Below are positions 48,580 through 55,278 of a stretch of DNA of 64,000 nucleotides, in pieces (the first letter of the stretch is position 1; the number at the start of each line of letters is the position of its first letter). The DNA is from Citrifermentans bemidjiense Bem (GTDB lineage Bacteria; Desulfobacterota; Desulfuromonadia; Geobacterales; Geobacteraceae). Both the position numbers and the translations under genes were made by a program. The stretch is taken from assembly GCF_000020725.1 (NCBI RefSeq), contig NC_011146.1, positions 2,231,501-2,295,500 on the forward strand, given 5' to 3'. The notes under the pieces are model-generated. The model saw only the letters and a program-made list of their open reading frames with translations, did not search any database and was not told where the DNA came from.

Positions 48580-49659
48580 CTATTTTATCCAGCCGCCGCC
48601 TACGACTTTATCCCCCTGGTAAAGGACGACTGCCTGCCCCGGGGTCACTGCGCGCTGCGGGGTTTCGAACTCCACCTGCATGCGCCCGTCCTCGATAAGC
48701 CGCGCGGAGCAGGGGACCGGCTGCATCCGGTAACGGATGCTGCAGCTGCCGTTAAAGCCGCCACTGATGGGTTTGTCGGTCCAGGTGAGTTCCCCGGCGA
48801 CCAGTCCGCCTATCTTCAGATCTTCCTCCGGGCCCACGACGACGCGCGAGGTAGCGCCGTCTATCGCCGTGACGTAGAGCGGCTCTTTCCAGGCGATCCC
48901 CAGACCGCGCCGCTGCCCGATGGTGTACTTGTGGATGCCGACGTGGCTCCCGAGCTTGTTGCCGCTTTTGTCCACGATGTCGCCCGCCTCGGGCCGCACT
49001 CCCGCCTCTTCCAGGAACCTGACGTAGTCGTTGTCGGGTATGAAGCAGATCTCCTGGCTTTCCTGCTTTTGGGCCACCGGCAGGTTGAATCGGGCTGCGT
49101 GCTCGCGCACCACGCGCTTCTCCAGGTTCCCCACCGGGAAAACGATGCGGGAGAGCTGCTCCTGGTTCATCCCGAAAAGGAAGTAGCTCTGGTCCTTGCC
49201 GGGGTCGAGCCCTTTAAGCAACTGGTAGATCTCTTCGGCATCCTGCTCTATCCGCGCGTAGTGCCCGGTGGCGAGGAGATCCGCGCCAAAGGAGGCGGCC
49301 ATATCCAGCAGCAGGCCGAACTTGATCCTTTCGTTGCAGCGGGCGCAGGGGTTGGGGGTCCTGCCGGCGGCATACTCGGCGGTGAAGTTGTCGATTACGA
49401 GCTCCTTGAAACGCTCCCTCAGGTCGATGACCTCGAAGGGGATGCCCAGTCGCTTGGCGACCCTGGCCGCGTCCATCACGTCGGTGAGCGAGCAGCAGGT
49501 TTTCCCGCCGCTGGGGGTTGATTCCGGGCGCTCGTAAAGCTGCAGCGAGACCCCCATGACGTCGTGTCCCTGTTCCTTCAAGAGCGCGGCCGTGACCGAT
49601 GAATCGACGCCCCCGCTCATTGCCACCAATATCTGTTTTTTCCCTGCTTTATCGCTCAT
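48580..49659 (-). CDS. mnmA: tRNA-specific 2-thiouridylase MnmA
   Basis: A 359-residue enzyme placing sulfur on U34 of Lys, Glu and Gln tRNAs. ILVAMSGGVDSSVTAALLKEQGHDVMG carries the PP-loop (landmark, residues 9-35). The catalytic cysteines lie in NPCARCNERIKFG (Cys about 104) and SQEICFIPD (about 205), and YTIGQRRGLGI is present. Normal length. It sits on the same strand as the upstream tusA-like and sulfur-transfer genes, suggesting a supply of activated sulfur to it. Confidence 0.96.
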   Translation of the reverse strand: MSDKAGKKQILVAMSGGVDSSVTAALLKEQGHDVMGVSLQLYERPESTPSGGKTCCSLTDVMDAARVAKRLGIPFEVIDLRERFKELVIDNFTAEYAAGRTPNPCARCNERIKFGLLLDMAASFGADLLATGHYARIEQDAEEIYQLLKGLDPGKDQSYFLFGMNQEQLSRIVFPVGNLEKRVVREHAARFNLPVAQKQESQEICFIPDNDYVRFLEEAGVRPEAGDIVDKSGNKLGSHVGIHKYTIGQRRGLGIAWKEPLYVTAIDGATSRVVVGPEEDLKIGGLVAGELTWTDKPISGGFNGSCSIRYRMQPVPCSARLIEDGRMQVEFETPQRAVTPGQAVVLYQGDKVVGGGWIK

Positions 49660-49802: not shown

Positions 49803-50027
49803 TCAGTCTTCGCCTTTTTCCAGCGTCAGTACGTAGTAGCCATCCACCTCTTTGAGTCCGAGGAGCTTGTGCCCTTCGTCCTTGAGGCTGCGGGGAACGT
49901 TCTTTACCGGTTCGCCGTCGTCCAGAAGAAATTCCACCGTGGTCCCGGCTTCGATATCTTCCAGCTCCAGTTTGGCCTTCACGAAATTGGTGGGGCAGGA
50001 GACGCCGCGTAAATCTATGGTTTCCAT
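49803..50027 (-). CDS. TusA/SirA-family sulfur carrier-like protein
   Basis: A 74-residue protein of the TusA fold. IDLRGVSCPTNFVKAKLELE holds the conserved Cys11-Pro12 that carries a persulfide, and FLLDDGEPVKNVPRSLKDEGH is the usual middle (landmark). It lies between the sulfite reductase and mnmA genes. TusA delivers sulfur towards MnmA in E. coli through TusBCD-TusE, so a short relay to MnmA or to the carrier protein is plausible but unproven. Confidence 0.88.
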   Translation of the reverse strand: METIDLRGVSCPTNFVKAKLELEDIEAGTTVEFLLDDGEPVKNVPRSLKDEGHKLLGLKEVDGYYVLTLEKGED

Positions 50028-50040
50028 TTTCTCTCCTCAA

Positions 50041-50156
50041 AAGTCTCCCCCTCCCCCCCTGCGGGGGAGGGCCGGGGTGGGGGGGAAGGCGCCAGATGCG
50101 ACTTCGTTGGCGGCTTCACCCACCCCCCGACCCCCTCCCGTCAAGGGAGGGGGAGC
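50041..50156. repeat. Composite palindromic repeat (BIME-like), inverted copy
   Basis: Two C-rich/G-rich hairpins flank the 30-base spacer between GGCGCCAGATGCGACTTCGT and GGCGGCTTC. It is the reverse complement of the spacer at 29.7 kb except for two bases. It separates the sulfite reductase gene from the tusA-like gene. Confidence 0.88.
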
Positions 50157-50169
50157 AAGTCTATGGCTC

Positions 50170-51114
50170 CTATGGCTTGCCCAGCGGTAGCTGGGTGTTG
50201 ATGACCTGCGGGTCGATGGTGCCGGCCACGACGACCTCAGGGAATCCTTTGCGCAGGTGGTCGAGAAGCGACTGGTTTCCCTCGCGCAGGATGATGTCGC
50301 CGATCCGGATCCTGCCCGCGCCTTCGGCCTTCTCCTGGTACCAGGCAAGGACAGACCCGATGAAGTCGACCACCCGATCTTCCGGGAGGAAGGTGGCGTA
50401 CACGGTTCCCACCAGCGGGCGCCGTCCCCACTTGCCGCCGATGCGTGCGGTGTAACCTTTCTTCTCCGCCTTCCAGGCGTCGGTCGGGCAGACCTTGATG
50501 CAATCGCCGCAGTAGATGCATTTGGCGGTGTCGAAGACGGGCTTGTTGTCGGCGCCCATGGTGAGCGCCCCCTCGGTGCAGGACTTGGCGCAGAGGCCGC
50601 AGCTGATGCAGCCGGAGGCGTCGAGCGCGGGCCACACGGCGCCCTGGAGGCCGACGTCGTTGGTTGCGGACTTGGGACAGTCGAAGGGGCAGCCGGCGAA
50701 GCCGACCTTGAACTTATGGTGGCCGGTGACGGTGCCGAAGAGCTTCTCGTCGACCTCGAGCGCCGACTTCTGGGTATCGACCAGGCCGTTGGGGTTATAC
50801 TCGCAGCCGCCGCATGCCGTGGGGACCCGGACGCGCGCGCCGCAGGAGGCGACCTTCTGCTGTTCTTCGCCCAGTTCGGCCACTACCGCGTCGAAATCGG
50901 CGAAGTTGATGTTGATCAGTTCGATGGACTGGCGCACGGACAAGTGGACGAACCCCTTGCCGTATTTCTGTGCCACCGCGGCGATCTTCGCCAGGCGGTC
51001 CACCGACATCCTGCCGCCGGGGACGCGCAGCCGGACGGTGAACATGTCCTTGCCGCGCTCCTTGATGAAGCCGCCGGCCTTCAGGTTTTTCAGGTCTATT
51101 TTCTGGTCTGCCAC
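50170..51114 (-). CDS. Siroheme [4Fe-4S] sulfite reductase (small, ferredoxin-fused)
   Basis: A 314-residue nitrite/sulfite reductase family protein (AsrC/Sir-like). The NIR_SIR ferredoxin-like half domain is at about 15-85. The siroheme-4Fe4S cysteines lie in TACGGCEYN (101, 104) and AGCPFDCPKSATND (142, 146). Two ferredoxin clusters follow: CISCGLCAKSC (169-179) and CIYCGDCIKVC (199-209). A C-terminal domain completes it. It would reduce sulfite to sulfide. Downstream of the JAMM gene by 44 bases, so it is likely the sulfide source for thiocarboxylate formation on the carrier protein. Confidence 0.87.
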   Translation of the reverse strand: MADQKIDLKNLKAGGFIKERGKDMFTVRLRVPGGRMSVDRLAKIAAVAQKYGKGFVHLSVRQSIELININFADFDAVVAELGEEQQKVASCGARVRVPTACGGCEYNPNGLVDTQKSALEVDEKLFGTVTGHHKFKVGFAGCPFDCPKSATNDVGLQGAVWPALDASGCISCGLCAKSCTEGALTMGADNKPVFDTAKCIYCGDCIKVCPTDAWKAEKKGYTARIGGKWGRRPLVGTVYATFLPEDRVVDFIGSVLAWYQEKAEGAGRIRIGDIILREGNQSLLDHLRKGFPEVVVAGTIDPQVINTQLPLGKP

Positions 51115-51158
51115 GTTTCTCTCCTAAGGACTAAAAATCACAAAAAAGCACTTGGCGT

Positions 51159-51560
51159 TTATCCCGCTACCACAATCTCCACCGGTTCGACCGCGCCGCC
51201 TTCGATGCGGAACGCCTTGGCGACCGGCTTGTCCCGTGCCTCAAGCGACACGATCAGGTGGTGGACGTTGGGGGTCAGCGCCAGCCGGATGTCTTCCTGC
51301 GAGGGGCGGGCGGGGGACTCGGGGTGCGAGTGGTAGATCACCAGCATCTCCTCACCGCTCGCTCGCAGCGCCTTGACCACGGCGAACTGCTCCTTCGGAT
51401 CCATCATGAAATGGTCGTTGCTGGCGTCGGTGTTGGTCATCGGATGGTGGCTCGCCACTACCTGTCCGTTGCCGCCCAGTATGCCGCAGACCTCCAGCGG
51501 AAACCCGTTCTGGGCGTGGCTTATCACCGCGGCCAGTATCTCTTTCGGTATCTCGACCAT
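51159..51560 (-). CDS. JAMM/MPN+ zinc metalloprotease (HcyD/Mec-like)
   Basis: A 133-residue single-domain JAMM peptidase. The full catalytic set is present: Glu23 in PLEVCGIL and the HSH-x7-S-x2-D motif (His77, His79, Ser87, Asp90 in HSHPESPARPSQED). Bacterial members next to ThiS-like carriers trim the carrier C-terminus and release the amino acid formed on it (Mec with CysO; HcyD with HcyS). It begins one base after the E1-like gene stop. The carrier encoded two genes upstream ends in an extra Arg that this enzyme could remove. Confidence 0.92.
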   Translation of the reverse strand: MVEIPKEILAAVISHAQNGFPLEVCGILGGNGQVVASHHPMTNTDASNDHFMMDPKEQFAVVKALRASGEEMLVIYHSHPESPARPSQEDIRLALTPNVHHLIVSLEARDKPVAKAFRIEGGAVEPVEIVVAG

Positions 51561-51561
51561 A

Positions 51562-52374
51562 TCAGTGTCCCAGGTCGCAGACGGTCATGGCGTCAAGCTC
51601 GTCCTTCAGCTCGGTGATGGTGGGGTGGTCGCCGCAGATCGGGCACTTGGCGCTCTTCTTCACCGGGATTTCCCTGAAGCGCATCCTGAGAGCGTTGTAG
51701 GTAAGCAGGCGCCCGGTCAAAAGATCGCCGGCTCCCAGCAGGTACTTGATCGCCTCGGTGGCCTGAAGCGTGCCGAGCACGCCGGGGAGGACGCCGATGA
51801 CCCCTGCCCGCGAGCAGGTCGGGATCACGTCCTTCGGGGGAGGCTCCGGGAAGATGCAGCGGTAGCAGGGGGATTCCCCCGGCTTGACCGTCATGGTCTG
51901 CCCGTCGAACTGCAGTATCCCGCCGTGGGAGTAGGGCTTGCCGGCGAGGACGCAGGCGTCGTTGATGAGGAACTTGGCCGCGAAGTTGTCGGTGCCGTCG
52001 ATGACGAAGTCGTAGTCGGCGATGAGGCCGGCGATGTTCTCGGCGGAAACCCAGGTCTGGTAGGCGTTCACGGTGAGCTCGGGGTTGATCGCCAGCATCG
52101 TTTCCTTGGCCGAGAGCACCTTCGCCTTCCCCACGTCAGGGGTGGTGTGGATGACCTGGCGCTGCAGGTTGGAGAGGTCCACCTCGTCGGCGTCCGCGAT
52201 GCCGATGGTGCCGACACCGGCTGCCGCCAGGTACAGGGCAATCGGGGAACCGAGGCCGCCAGCCCCGATGATGAGAACGCGCCCCTCAAGCAGCTTCTTC
52301 TGCCCCTTACCGCCGACTTCCTTCAACAGGATGTGCCGGGAATAGCGGGTGATCTGTTCTTCGCTGAGCTTCAC
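51562..52374 (-). CDS. E1-like sulfur-carrier adenylyltransferase (MoeB/ThiF/HcyF type)
   Basis: A 270-residue enzyme that adenylates the C-terminal glycine of a ubiquitin-like carrier. SRHILLKEVGGKGQKKL, nucleotide loop IIGAGGLGSP (36-44), DADEVDLSNLQRQ, the Asp in DGTDNFAAKFL, and zinc cysteines CYRC (170-173) and CPIC (244-247) are present. No rhodanese domain, so sulfide probably attacks directly. The start is GTG at 52374, sharing one base with the carrier's TAG stop: tight coupling of the two. Confidence 0.93.
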   Translation of the reverse strand: MKLSEEQITRYSRHILLKEVGGKGQKKLLEGRVLIIGAGGLGSPIALYLAAAGVGTIGIADADEVDLSNLQRQVIHTTPDVGKAKVLSAKETMLAINPELTVNAYQTWVSAENIAGLIADYDFVIDGTDNFAAKFLINDACVLAGKPYSHGGILQFDGQTMTVKPGESPCYRCIFPEPPPKDVIPTCSRAGVIGVLPGVLGTLQATEAIKYLLGAGDLLTGRLLTYNALRMRFREIPVKKSAKCPICGDHPTITELKDELDAMTVCDLGH

Positions 52375-52586
52375 TATCTACCTCCACCCATGAAATAGAG
52401 AAATTCCACGTTGTCGCCGTTCTTCACCGTTGCGCCGTCGAAATCGCCGCGGTCGAGGATGTCGCCGTTCAGTTCGACGGTGACGTATTCGCGTTGCTCC
52501 ACCTGCAGAAGTTCGAGCAGTCGGCTTACCGGGACCGGGTTCTCCTCTGCGATGCTGGCTGGTTTGCCGTTGACTGTAAGATTCAT
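52374..52586 (-). CDS. ThiS/MoaD-like sulfur carrier with C-terminal Arg cap (HcyS-like)
   Basis: A 70-residue ubiquitin-fold carrier. MNLTVNGKPASIAEENP begins the fold, VTVELNGDILDR and NGDNVEFLYFMGGGR end it. Normal ThiS/MoaD proteins end in Gly-Gly with a free carboxylate, but here the codons read GGT GGA GGT AGA TAG, so one Arg follows the glycines. The protein must be trimmed before it can be adenylated, and the JAMM protease two genes on is the natural candidate. In Wolinella HcyS the cap is Ala. AAGGAG precedes the ATG. Confidence 0.9.
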   Translation of the reverse strand: MNLTVNGKPASIAEENPVPVSRLLELLQVEQREYVTVELNGDILDRGDFDGATVKNGDNVEFLYFMGGGR

Positions 52587-52640
52587 TAAGATCGCTCCTT
52601 GTTTAGTAACATAGATGATTGGTAAAGAACAGATTTTCCC

Positions 52641-53894
52641 TCAGGCCTCTTCCAGCGCGGCCGCGAAATCCTCCAGGATGTCCTCGATGTCCTCGATCCC
52701 CACCGAGACCCTGACCTGCTCCTCGCTCACTCCCATGAGCGCCTTCACCTCGGGGGTGTAATCGGCGCAGATGGTGCTCGCCGGGTGGATCACCAGAGTC
52801 TTGGTGTCGCCGATGTTGGCGAGATTCTTGGCCAGCCGCAGGTTGTTGATGACCCGGAAGGCGGCGGCCTTGTCCGTGAGCCCGAAGGTCAAGAGCCCGC
52901 CGAAGCGGCCGTTGAACTGGCGCTTCGCCACCTCGTAAAAGGGGGAATCGTCGAGGCCGGGGTAGTTGACCCAAGTGACCTTTTCGTGCGCCTGAAGAAA
53001 CCGGGCCACCTGGAGGGCGTTGGAGCAGTGCCGCTCCATGCGCAGGGCCAGCGTCTCCAGCCCCTCGCCCAAAAGGAACGAGTTGAGCGGCGCGGCGCAG
53101 GCGCCGAAATCCTTGTGGATCAGCTTGCGGACCCGTGCCGTGAAGGCGAAGCTGCGGTACTTGCGGAAAAACTGCTCGAAGTGCGGGAACTTCGGGCTCT
53201 GCCAGTTGAAGCTCCCGGCATCTATGATGGCGCCGCCGATGGAGTTGGCTGTTCCGTTGATGTACTTGCTGGTGGAATGGACGACGATGTCGGCCCCGAG
53301 TTCCTTGGATCGCGCGAGATACGGCGTGGAAACGGTGGCGTCGACCATGAGCGGGATGCCGTGCTTTTTGGCGATGGCTGCGAAAGCCGCTATGTCGGGA
53401 ACGTCCATCTTCGGGTTGCCGATGGTTTCCACGAAGATCAGTCGGGTTTTGTCGTTGATCCCCGCCTCGACCGCGGCAAGGTCGACGGGGTCGACGAAGC
53501 GGGTTTCGATCCCGAAGTTGGCCAGGGTGACGTGGAACAGCGAGTAGGTGCCCCCGAAAAGCGAGGAGGAGGAGAGGACCTCGTCGCCGCTTCTGACTAC
53601 GGCCATGACCGAGGTGGTGATCGCCGCCATGCCCGAAGAGGTGGCGACGGCGGCGATGCCGTCCTCGATCGCGGCCAGCCTCTTTTCCAGGGTGTCCACG
53701 GTGGGGTTGCCTATCCTCGTGTACACCTGGCCTACGGCTCTTCCCCTGAAGATGTCTTCCAGTTCTTCCGCCGTGTCGTAGGCGAAGGCGGATGCCTGTA
53801 CTATCGGGGTCTTGGTGGCGCCGGAGGGCCCGGGCGAGGTGCCGCCGTGGATCAGTTTCGTGTCGAATCTCAGCTTCTTTTCTTTCTCTCCCAC
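52641..53894 (-). CDS. O-acetylhomoserine sulfhydrylase-like PLP enzyme (MetY)
   Basis: A 417-residue Cys/Met-metabolism PLP enzyme. FDTKLIHGGTSPGPSGATKTPI, the Schiff-base lysine in VVHSTSKYINGTANSIGG, VYTRIGNPTVDTLEKR and the C-terminal VRVSVGIEDIEDILEDF are typical (landmarks); FGACAAPLNSFLLGEGLETLALRMERH is closest to the MetY branch. It would replace the acetyl group of O-acetylhomoserine by sulfur, from free sulfide or from the carrier thiocarboxylate. GTG start with GGAGG upstream. First gene of the cluster, 54 bases before the carrier gene. Confidence 0.9.
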   Translation of the reverse strand: MGEKEKKLRFDTKLIHGGTSPGPSGATKTPIVQASAFAYDTAEELEDIFRGRAVGQVYTRIGNPTVDTLEKRLAAIEDGIAAVATSSGMAAITTSVMAVVRSGDEVLSSSSLFGGTYSLFHVTLANFGIETRFVDPVDLAAVEAGINDKTRLIFVETIGNPKMDVPDIAAFAAIAKKHGIPLMVDATVSTPYLARSKELGADIVVHSTSKYINGTANSIGGAIIDAGSFNWQSPKFPHFEQFFRKYRSFAFTARVRKLIHKDFGACAAPLNSFLLGEGLETLALRMERHCSNALQVARFLQAHEKVTWVNYPGLDDSPFYEVAKRQFNGRFGGLLTFGLTDKAAAFRVINNLRLAKNLANIGDTKTLVIHPASTICADYTPEVKALMGVSEEQVRVSVGIEDIEDILEDFAAALEEA

Positions 53895-54324: not shown

Positions 54325-55278
54325 ATGTCCCGTATCTACCTAGACAACTCCCAGTCCATTGGCAACACGCCGCTGGTGCGGCTGAACCATGTAACCAAGG
54401 GGGCCAAGGCGACCGTGCTCGCCAAGGTCGAGGGGCGCAACCCCGCCTACTCGGTAAAGTGCCGCATCGGTGCCAACATGATCTGGGATGCCGAGGAGCG
54501 TGGCGTACTGAAGCCTGGGGTGGAGATCGTCGAGCCGACCAGCGGCAACACCGGCATAGCGCTTGCCTACGTGGCGGCGGCCCGCGGTTACAAGCTGACC
54601 CTCACCATGCCCGAGACCATGAGCATCGAGCGCCGCAGGGTGCTGGCGGCATTGGGAGCGAACCTGATCCTTACCCCGGGTTCCGCCGGGATGAAAGGGG
54701 CCGTGGCCAAGGCCGAGGAGATCGCGGCTTCCGATCCGGCGCGCTACTTCCTGCCGCAGCAGTTCAAGAACCCTGCTAACCCCGCCATTCACGAGAAAAC
54801 GACCGGCCCGGAAATCTGGGCCGACACCGACGGCGCCGTAGACGTCGTCGTAGCCGGCGTAGGTACCGGCGGCACCATCTCCGGGATCGCCCGCTACCTC
54901 AAGCAGACCAAGGGGAAGCAGGTCGTCGCGGTTGCGGTCGAGCCCAAGGAAAGCCCGGTAATCAGCCAGAAGCTTGCCGGCCAGGAACTCAAGCCCGGCC
55001 CGCACAAGATCCAGGGGATCGGCGCCGGTTTCATTCCCGATACCCTCGACCTCTCCGTCATCGACCGGGTCGAGCAGATCGACAGCAACGAGGCCTTGGA
55101 GTTCGCCAAGCGCCTTACCAAGGAAGAGGGCCTTTTGGTCGGCATCTCCAGCGGCGCCGCGGTTGCCGCCGCCGTGCGGCTGGCCAACCTGCAGGAATTT
55201 GCCGGCAAGACCATCGTGGTGGTGCTCCCCGACCTCGCCGAGCGCTATCTCTCCACCGCACTCTTCGAAGAAGCCTGA
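54325..55278 (+). CDS. cysK: Cysteine synthase A (O-acetylserine sulfhydrylase)
   Basis: A 317-residue PLP enzyme making cysteine from O-acetylserine and sulfide. The Schiff-base lysine lies in [19 protein letters not shown], substrate loop [12 protein letters not shown], phosphate loop [13 protein letters not shown] and C-terminal [19 protein letters not shown] precedes the ATG. It is divergent from the metY-carrier operon, so both sulfur amino acids are probably under common control. Its Asn/Ser loop looks like ordinary CysK, not the CysO-dependent CysM type. Confidence 0.96.

Follow-up and report, generated by a model that had tools for sequence, protein, structure and literature searches.

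A putative Wolinella-type homocysteine operon in Citrifermentans bemidjiense with a tailed sulfur carrier and a JAMM protease that may also mature ThiS

The closest described relative of the system treated here is the HcyS/HcyD/HcyF/MetY/Sir pathway of Wolinella succinogenes, reportedly described by Krishnamoorthy and Begley in 2011 (a work cited in PMC5764234), in which the carrier is said to be HcyS-Ala. JAMM proteases also act on ThiS-like carriers in the thioquinolobactin system (QbsE/QbsD) and in Mycobacterium (CysO/Mec); the tail of QbsE has two residues, and CysO ends in a free Gly-Gly. Here we present an operon from Citrifermentans bemidjiense Bem in which a sulfur carrier with a short C-terminal tail is encoded beside a JAMM metalloprotease. 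The operon lies in a 64,000-nt stretch (the window, whose coordinates we use unless stated otherwise) of NC_011146.1, the single 4.6 Mb contig of the genome. We favor, with a probability of roughly 0.72, a reading as a Wolinella-type protein-thiocarboxylate homocysteine operon with a tailed carrier, whose JAMM protease would also mature the thiamine carrier ThiS. Three papers, each consulted in part, provide the published background. Iyer et al. 2006 (PMC1779556, Table 1, row 4e) list the gene set in Geobacter metallireducens and W. succinogenes, so that neither the layout nor its presence in this lineage is new; an earlier note on this stretch had supposed an Arg-capped variant to be undescribed in the lineage. 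In the portion consulted, the same paper suggests that JAB proteins may free fused ThiS or MoaD carriers, notes ThiS-ThiG fusions, and describes JAB proteins as absent from the thiamine pathway. As for cleaved fusions, DRJAMM cleaves a MoaD-MoaE fusion (PMC8832034), and MoaX is cut at Gly82-Ser83 by a protease that the consulted part of PMC4326299 leaves unnamed.

The operon occupies positions 49803-53894 on the reverse strand. It begins with a MetY-type O-acetylhomoserine aminocarboxypropyltransferase of 417 residues (52641-53894; PF01053, 1e-122), followed by an HcyS-like sulfur carrier of 70 residues (52374-52586; PF02597; TIGR01683, 60.7 bits), an E1-like adenylyltransferase of the HcyF/MoeB type without a rhodanese domain (51562-52374; PF00899, 3e-86), a JAMM metalloprotease of the HcyD type (51159-51560; PF14464, Prok-JAB; PDB relative 2kks), and a siroheme/4Fe-4S sulfite reductase-like protein with extra 4Fe-4S motifs (50170-51114; PF03460 and PF01077, with 4Fe-4S matches). 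These are the five parts of the Wolinella-type set, present together. The carrier ends in EFLYFMGGGR, where the codon AGA (52377-52379) adds one Arg behind three glycines, a residue that JAMM is predicted to remove. The stop codon TAG of the carrier and the start codon GTG of E1 overlap at base 52374, and the single base 51561 separates the E1 and JAMM genes. The earlier note had this row of five genes on one strand exact to the base, and its overlap, its one-base gap and its GGGR terminus are confirmed; the sequence likewise supports its comparison with the W. succinogenes layout, with a blocked carrier beside a JAMM gene. It overlooked a sixth gene, for a TusA/SirA-type sulfurtransferase (49803-50027; PF01206), at the end of the cluster.

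Some of the family matches fall below their cut-offs. The MetY of the operon scores 489.4 bits against TIGR01326 (cut-off 495.1) and is, judged by its sequence, a divergent member of MetY; the best NCBIfam match of the reductase is sulfite reductase subunit C, with 149 bits (cut-off 324). For the supply of O-acetylhomoserine, the genome has one MetX match of 447 bits, with a cut-off of 500 that none of 14 control genomes reaches. The closest solved structure to the carrier (PDB 2k5p/3cwi), which we take to be the G. metallireducens protein, is labeled ThiS, has GGGK at the tail position and is close to HcyS in sequence; the eight residues behind GGGK are probably a purification tag, and the database label ThiS is probably a misnomer for such carriers. 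The JAMM protein has an E...HSHx7SxxD motif, and the metal and catalytic residues of the full JAMM/MPN+ motif, E...H-S/T-H-x7-S-x2-D, are all read from its sequence (PLEVCG; HSHPESPARPSQED). The motif is given in part by PMC8832034.

To place the operon, we use 141 genomes of its order, with JAMM found in 62 and not in 79, and a contig scan from which we took the best 80 of 564 confirmed loci, whose record titles name many phyla. The JAMM-positive set includes one genome with a JAMM gene truncated by the contig end (G054) and one scored positive despite a broken JAMM frame (G053). An intact carrier stands at the JAMM locus in 55 of the 62 genomes; the seven without an intact HcyS at the examined JAMM locus are G028, G043, G053, G054, G057, G058 and G063. 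The exact order MetY-carrier-E1-JAMM-reductase is kept in 48 of the 55 genomes, and in 53 of 60 when counted by locus, five loci being second copies and three of the other seven ending at a contig edge. At these 60 carrier loci we find MetY at 57, the reductase at 57 and TusA at 58, and on the stretches of the best 80 contig-scan loci JAMM at 74, TusA at 63, MetY at 57 and the reductase at 53. HcyS was not seen without JAMM: the 79 JAMM-negative genomes were searched, 72 have a match, and occurrence without JAMM was rejected since all 30 loci read were ThiS beside thiG, the remaining matches being compared with the places of ThiG by eye only. Other arrangements are also found in the order. Three genomes (G057, G058 and G063; loci L061-L065) have clusters of E1, JAMM and TusA, in some cases together with the reductase, that lack HcyS and MetY; G058 has three JAMM genes of this cluster type. 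Several genomes of one family encode an extra ThiS-like protein without a terminal Gly-Gly between MetY and HcyS (L025:245-448, L244:4766-4975, L245:4773-4976 and L049:2698-2958).

For the carrier ends, we required a match to EF[LI][YH]F[MR]GGG, a pattern that demands the three glycines and not a tail, and excluded the broken hcyS of G028. Pooling 55 carriers from the order with 56 from the contig scan, which include at least one further Geobacteraceae genome (L236), gives a non-redundant set of 111 distinct carriers. Residues follow Gly-Gly-Gly in 110 of them, that is, in 55/55 from the order and 55/56 from the contig scan (79 of the 80 contig-scan loci). The single bare carrier (L276) belongs to a genome that has only a divergent JAMM protein of 202 residues, and its own examined stretch lacks both E1 and JAMM.

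A rival explanation of these tails lies at the level of RNA. In the window, the codons GGA GGT (52380-52385) encode the last two glycines, and the sequence reads GGAGGT, then AGATA, then the GTG of E1, a Shine-Dalgarno sequence 5 nt before the start. Of the 96 carriers that are coupled to the gene behind them, 84 have GGAGG within the three Gly codons; the codon usage for Gly at these loci predicts 29.7, and 2000 simulations never gave more than 47. Among the 80 pairs in which carrier and following gene overlap, the start of the latter, in most cases E1, stands exactly 5 nt behind the last Gly codon in 62. From this enrichment and spacing, we read the Gly codons as doubling as a Shine-Dalgarno sequence and the tail codon as filling the spacer before the next start. 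The tail could then be no more than the by-product of placing that site in Gly codons, with a stop one or two codons on and without any blocking at the protein level. We take this to be a serious alternative, more apt to fail than to hold, if not by much. The shorter tails of coupled carriers (mean length 1.8, versus 4.5 in uncoupled ones, p 2e-4) speak for it, and coupling sets the length of the tail. However, a tail is also present on 12 of the 13 carriers that are neither coupled nor fused, and among 105 ThiS genes, 66 have GGAGG in their glycine codons, of which 45 are bare, so that a bare end is compatible with the site and coupling alone would leave unexplained why a tail is allowed. The choice of residues points to an effect at the amino-acid level as well: the first tail residue is Arg in 44, Ala in 29 and Ser in 14 of the 110 tailed carriers, and V, I, L, M, F, W, Y, D and P are never first among them. 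Trimming by JAMM would be needed in any case, and the RNA by-product accounts for the length of the tail, not for the system.

The second carrier that bears on the favored reading is ThiS itself. There are three ThiS-family matches in the C. bemidjiense genome: the operon carrier, a pterin-type carrier and ThiS. ThiS, at about 776220-776450 of the genome contig (L001:1468-1695), is directly upstream of thiG, with a thiE-like gene also downstream by our reading, and ends in VGGG-SLPASLPKAG, a ten-residue tail. The pterin-type carrier ends in a bare GGG, has its own E1 and, as we read its surroundings, lies beside an aldehyde ferredoxin oxidoreductase gene. We looked for a second JAMM and for a ThiF linked to thiSG, and by PF14464 and PF00899 there are none in this genome. 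The single PF14464 match is the operon JAMM, which is therefore the sole candidate of its family for the trimming of ThiS; PF00899 matches the operon E1, the pterin-linked E1 and a third protein that we read as TcdA, and finds no E1 gene beside thiSG. The operon E1 is a likelier activator of ThiS than the pterin-linked one.

Of the 141 genomes of the order, 111 were read for the ThiS end next to thiG; those unread are the JAMM-positive G010, G048, G051 and G115, and 26 of the 79 JAMM-negative genomes. A tail is present on ThiS in 29 of 58 genomes with JAMM versus 1 of 53 without it, with a Fisher p of 1.4e-9 that overstates independence, given that 17 of the 29 tailed genomes come from one genus (genus 1); when labels are permuted within genera only, p is 0.0033. 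Some genomes with a reduced operon keep the tail. In G028 (L013:480-690) the frame of hcyS is broken and metY was not found within 480 bases upstream of it, E1, JAMM, reductase and TusA are retained behind it, and ThiS is tailed. In G043, JAMM and reductase are kept without an adjoining carrier, E1 or MetY, an E1 with an operon-like score is found elsewhere, and ThiS is again tailed. G041, from the genus of C. bemidjiense, has no JAMM, a bare ThiS and two E1 proteins scoring like the operon E1, which fits, and does not prove, a role of E1 beyond HcyS. In other groups, 26 of 44 HcyS genomes have ThiG, and of the 21 in which ThiS was read, 6 are tailed or fused (one of them, L310, with AGG rather than GGG before the tail) and 15 are bare; at nine more loci, where ThiS adjoins HcyS, 3 are tailed and 6 bare. 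We infer that one JAMM protein matures both HcyS and ThiS. That the operon E1 also activates ThiS is likely, and we hold it less firmly than the role of JAMM.

In a few loci a whole enzyme takes the place of the tail. HcyS is in frame with MetY in L287, where no ATG, GTG or TTG appears until 39 codons behind the glycines, inside the enzyme region, and with E1 in L300; JAMM is on both stretches, and each is a single record in which sequencing errors are possible in principle. By analogy, these fusions resemble ubiquitin precursors. ThiS is in frame with ThiG in G044 of the genus of C. bemidjiense (L096), in a Selenomonadaceae metagenome-assembled genome (L326) and in a Treponema metagenome-assembled genome (L330), and HcyS and JAMM are present in each of the three; no ATG is found between GGG and the ThiG core in L326 and L330. 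In all five fusions, Ser stands directly behind GGG.

Besides the weight of genus 1 in the Fisher value, several observations count against a JAMM protein that matures ThiS and against a carrier-based route to methionine. Half of the JAMM-positive genomes read have a bare ThiS, among them the three genomes of another genus with E1 and JAMM and no HcyS (G057, G058 and G063), and G053 is counted as positive with its frame broken. In C. bemidjiense, ThiS could rely on the pterin-linked E1. Among the fusions, an ATG at the second codon behind the glycines of L300 makes a separate E1 start possible, and so does, for ThiG, an in-frame ATG at the eighth codon behind GGG in L096. MetY is on the stretch in just 57 of the 80 contig-scan loci, and the C. 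bemidjiense genome has two canonical MetY proteins besides (694 and 627 bits, TIGR01326) plus a cystathionine lyase-like pair. Because of this pair and of the other MetY proteins, which may use free sulfide, other routes to methionine could outweigh the one by the carrier. Finally, ThiS ends in VGGGR (L219:1501-1713) in G046, a JAMM-negative genome on one contig and 100% complete, which has no JAMM by PF14464 and no E1 scoring like the operon E1. A hidden JAMM was looked for in G046 and rejected, PF14464 giving only a remnant with a stop that we read as RadC-like; recent loss of JAMM or another protease are the only explanations we offer for this exception. G046 also favors the more general alternative that ThiS is trimmed by another protease, or is active with its tail, and that shared ancestry or lifestyle links it to JAMM. 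That alternative seems unlikely to us: tailed ThiS occurs in 9 of 20 genera with JAMM versus 1 of 17 without it, and the three lineages in which ThiS is fused to ThiG all have HcyS and JAMM as well.

The earlier note had proposed an arginine-capped variant of the HcyS-Ala system in this lineage, which would make the single Arg a conserved and specific block, and that comparing orthologous C-termini would tell, random tails being evidence to the contrary. The comparison finds a tail on nearly every carrier and Arg as the commonest first residue, and the tails themselves are near random: there are 43 distinct states behind GGG in the 111 carriers, counting the bare one and the two fusions. A bias at the protein level is plain, with the 44 Arg residues at the first position comparing with 6.5 expected and using all six Arg codons (counts that ignore relatedness), and 10 of the 16 intact carriers of genus 1 end exactly in R. 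However, the tail is exactly R in just 32 of the 111 carriers (21/55 in the order and 11/56 in the contig scan), on which grounds we reject Arg as a conserved cap; the others within genus 1 include RP, RS, SL and AQ, and Lys is not favored, being first in 1/110. An arginine-specific cap is thus quite improbable, and the idea of a blocked carrier now has far broader support. Arg at the first position looks favored and not required, and the pattern can be read as that of a broad protease with a preference rather than as an arginine signal. Least probable of all is a protein-modifier system in which SAMP-like carriers are conjugated and JAMM acts as a desampylase-like remover, given that the matches of JAMM to desampylase (its best in NCBIfam, NF041370; 81.6 bits) and of E1 to the SAMP-activating UbaA (345 bits) fall below their cut-offs of 130 and 450, and that the carrier is often linked to the sulfur genes MetY, reductase and TusA at the loci counted above.

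The favored reading, a Wolinella-type protein-thiocarboxylate operon, would work as follows; every catalytic step is a prediction made from the genes, motifs, tails, codons, fusions and distributions seen in the sequences. The carrier would be synthesized in a precursor form that extends a little beyond Gly-Gly-Gly, JAMM would cleave behind the last glycine, and E1 would adenylate the glycine thus exposed. Sulfur derived from the reductase, perhaps passed on by TusA, would turn the carrier into a thiocarboxylate, which MetY would join to O-acetylhomoserine to give carrier-bound homocysteine, and the same JAMM would set the homocysteine free. It would also trim the ten-residue tail of ThiS. Tails may be tolerated on any carrier within reach of JAMM because JAMM must cut behind this glycine anyway.

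A wider reading is tentative, close to an even chance and just under it: one JAMM frees, and one E1 loads with sulfur, the carriers of both methionine and thiamine synthesis, in a shared workshop where the two pathways compete or are co-regulated, and where, much as in ubiquitin biology, carriers may be made with free tails or with whole enzymes behind their glycines. The operon itself adds one more case to a known kind. What is possibly new is a role of JAMM outside it, with ThiS tailed or fused to ThiG in JAMM genomes; our searches of the open-licence PMC literature listed no report of a tailed ThiS or of JAMM action in thiamine synthesis, the nearest being the suggestion on fused carriers in PMC1779556, and the novelty is provisional. 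Ubiquitin-style precursor processing in vitamin B1 synthesis becomes testable in culturable bacteria, and the ThiS tail offers a mark, readable from the genome, of possible substrates of a bacterial JAMM. The glycine motif is also a case of codons with two functions, encoding a protein motif and providing a ribosome-binding site for the gene that follows, usually that of the activating enzyme.

As for the surroundings of the operon, cysK (cysteine synthase A) lies at 54325-55278, with its start divergent from the MetY operon, and mnmA lies downstream at 48580-49659. Between the reductase and TusA genes, at 50040-50160, there is a G-/C-rich stretch like an inverted repeat, possibly a dispersed element.

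Compared with the known systems, the locus shares with the W. succinogenes pathway the same five kinds of genes, a blocked carrier and JAMM. It differs in the tail, which is reportedly Ala there and is Arg here, in the wide variation of tails among its orthologues, and in a ThiS that is tailed as well. QbsE/QbsD and CysO/Mec differ in their products. Class 4e of Iyer et al. (PMC1779556) has the same components, a ThiS/MoaD-like protein, JAB, an E1 without rhodanese, SirA, sulfite reductase and O-acetylhomoserine sulfhydrylase, and the link between ThiS tails and JAMM is absent from the consulted part of that paper. The MoaD-MoaE fusions and MoaX (PMC8832034 and PMC4326299, in the parts consulted) are alike in that a downstream enzyme is split off the carrier behind the last glycine, and MoaX also in the Ser behind that Gly, as in all five fusions here; the product of the MoaD-MoaE fusions is molybdopterin, whereas here it would be homocysteine or thiamine.

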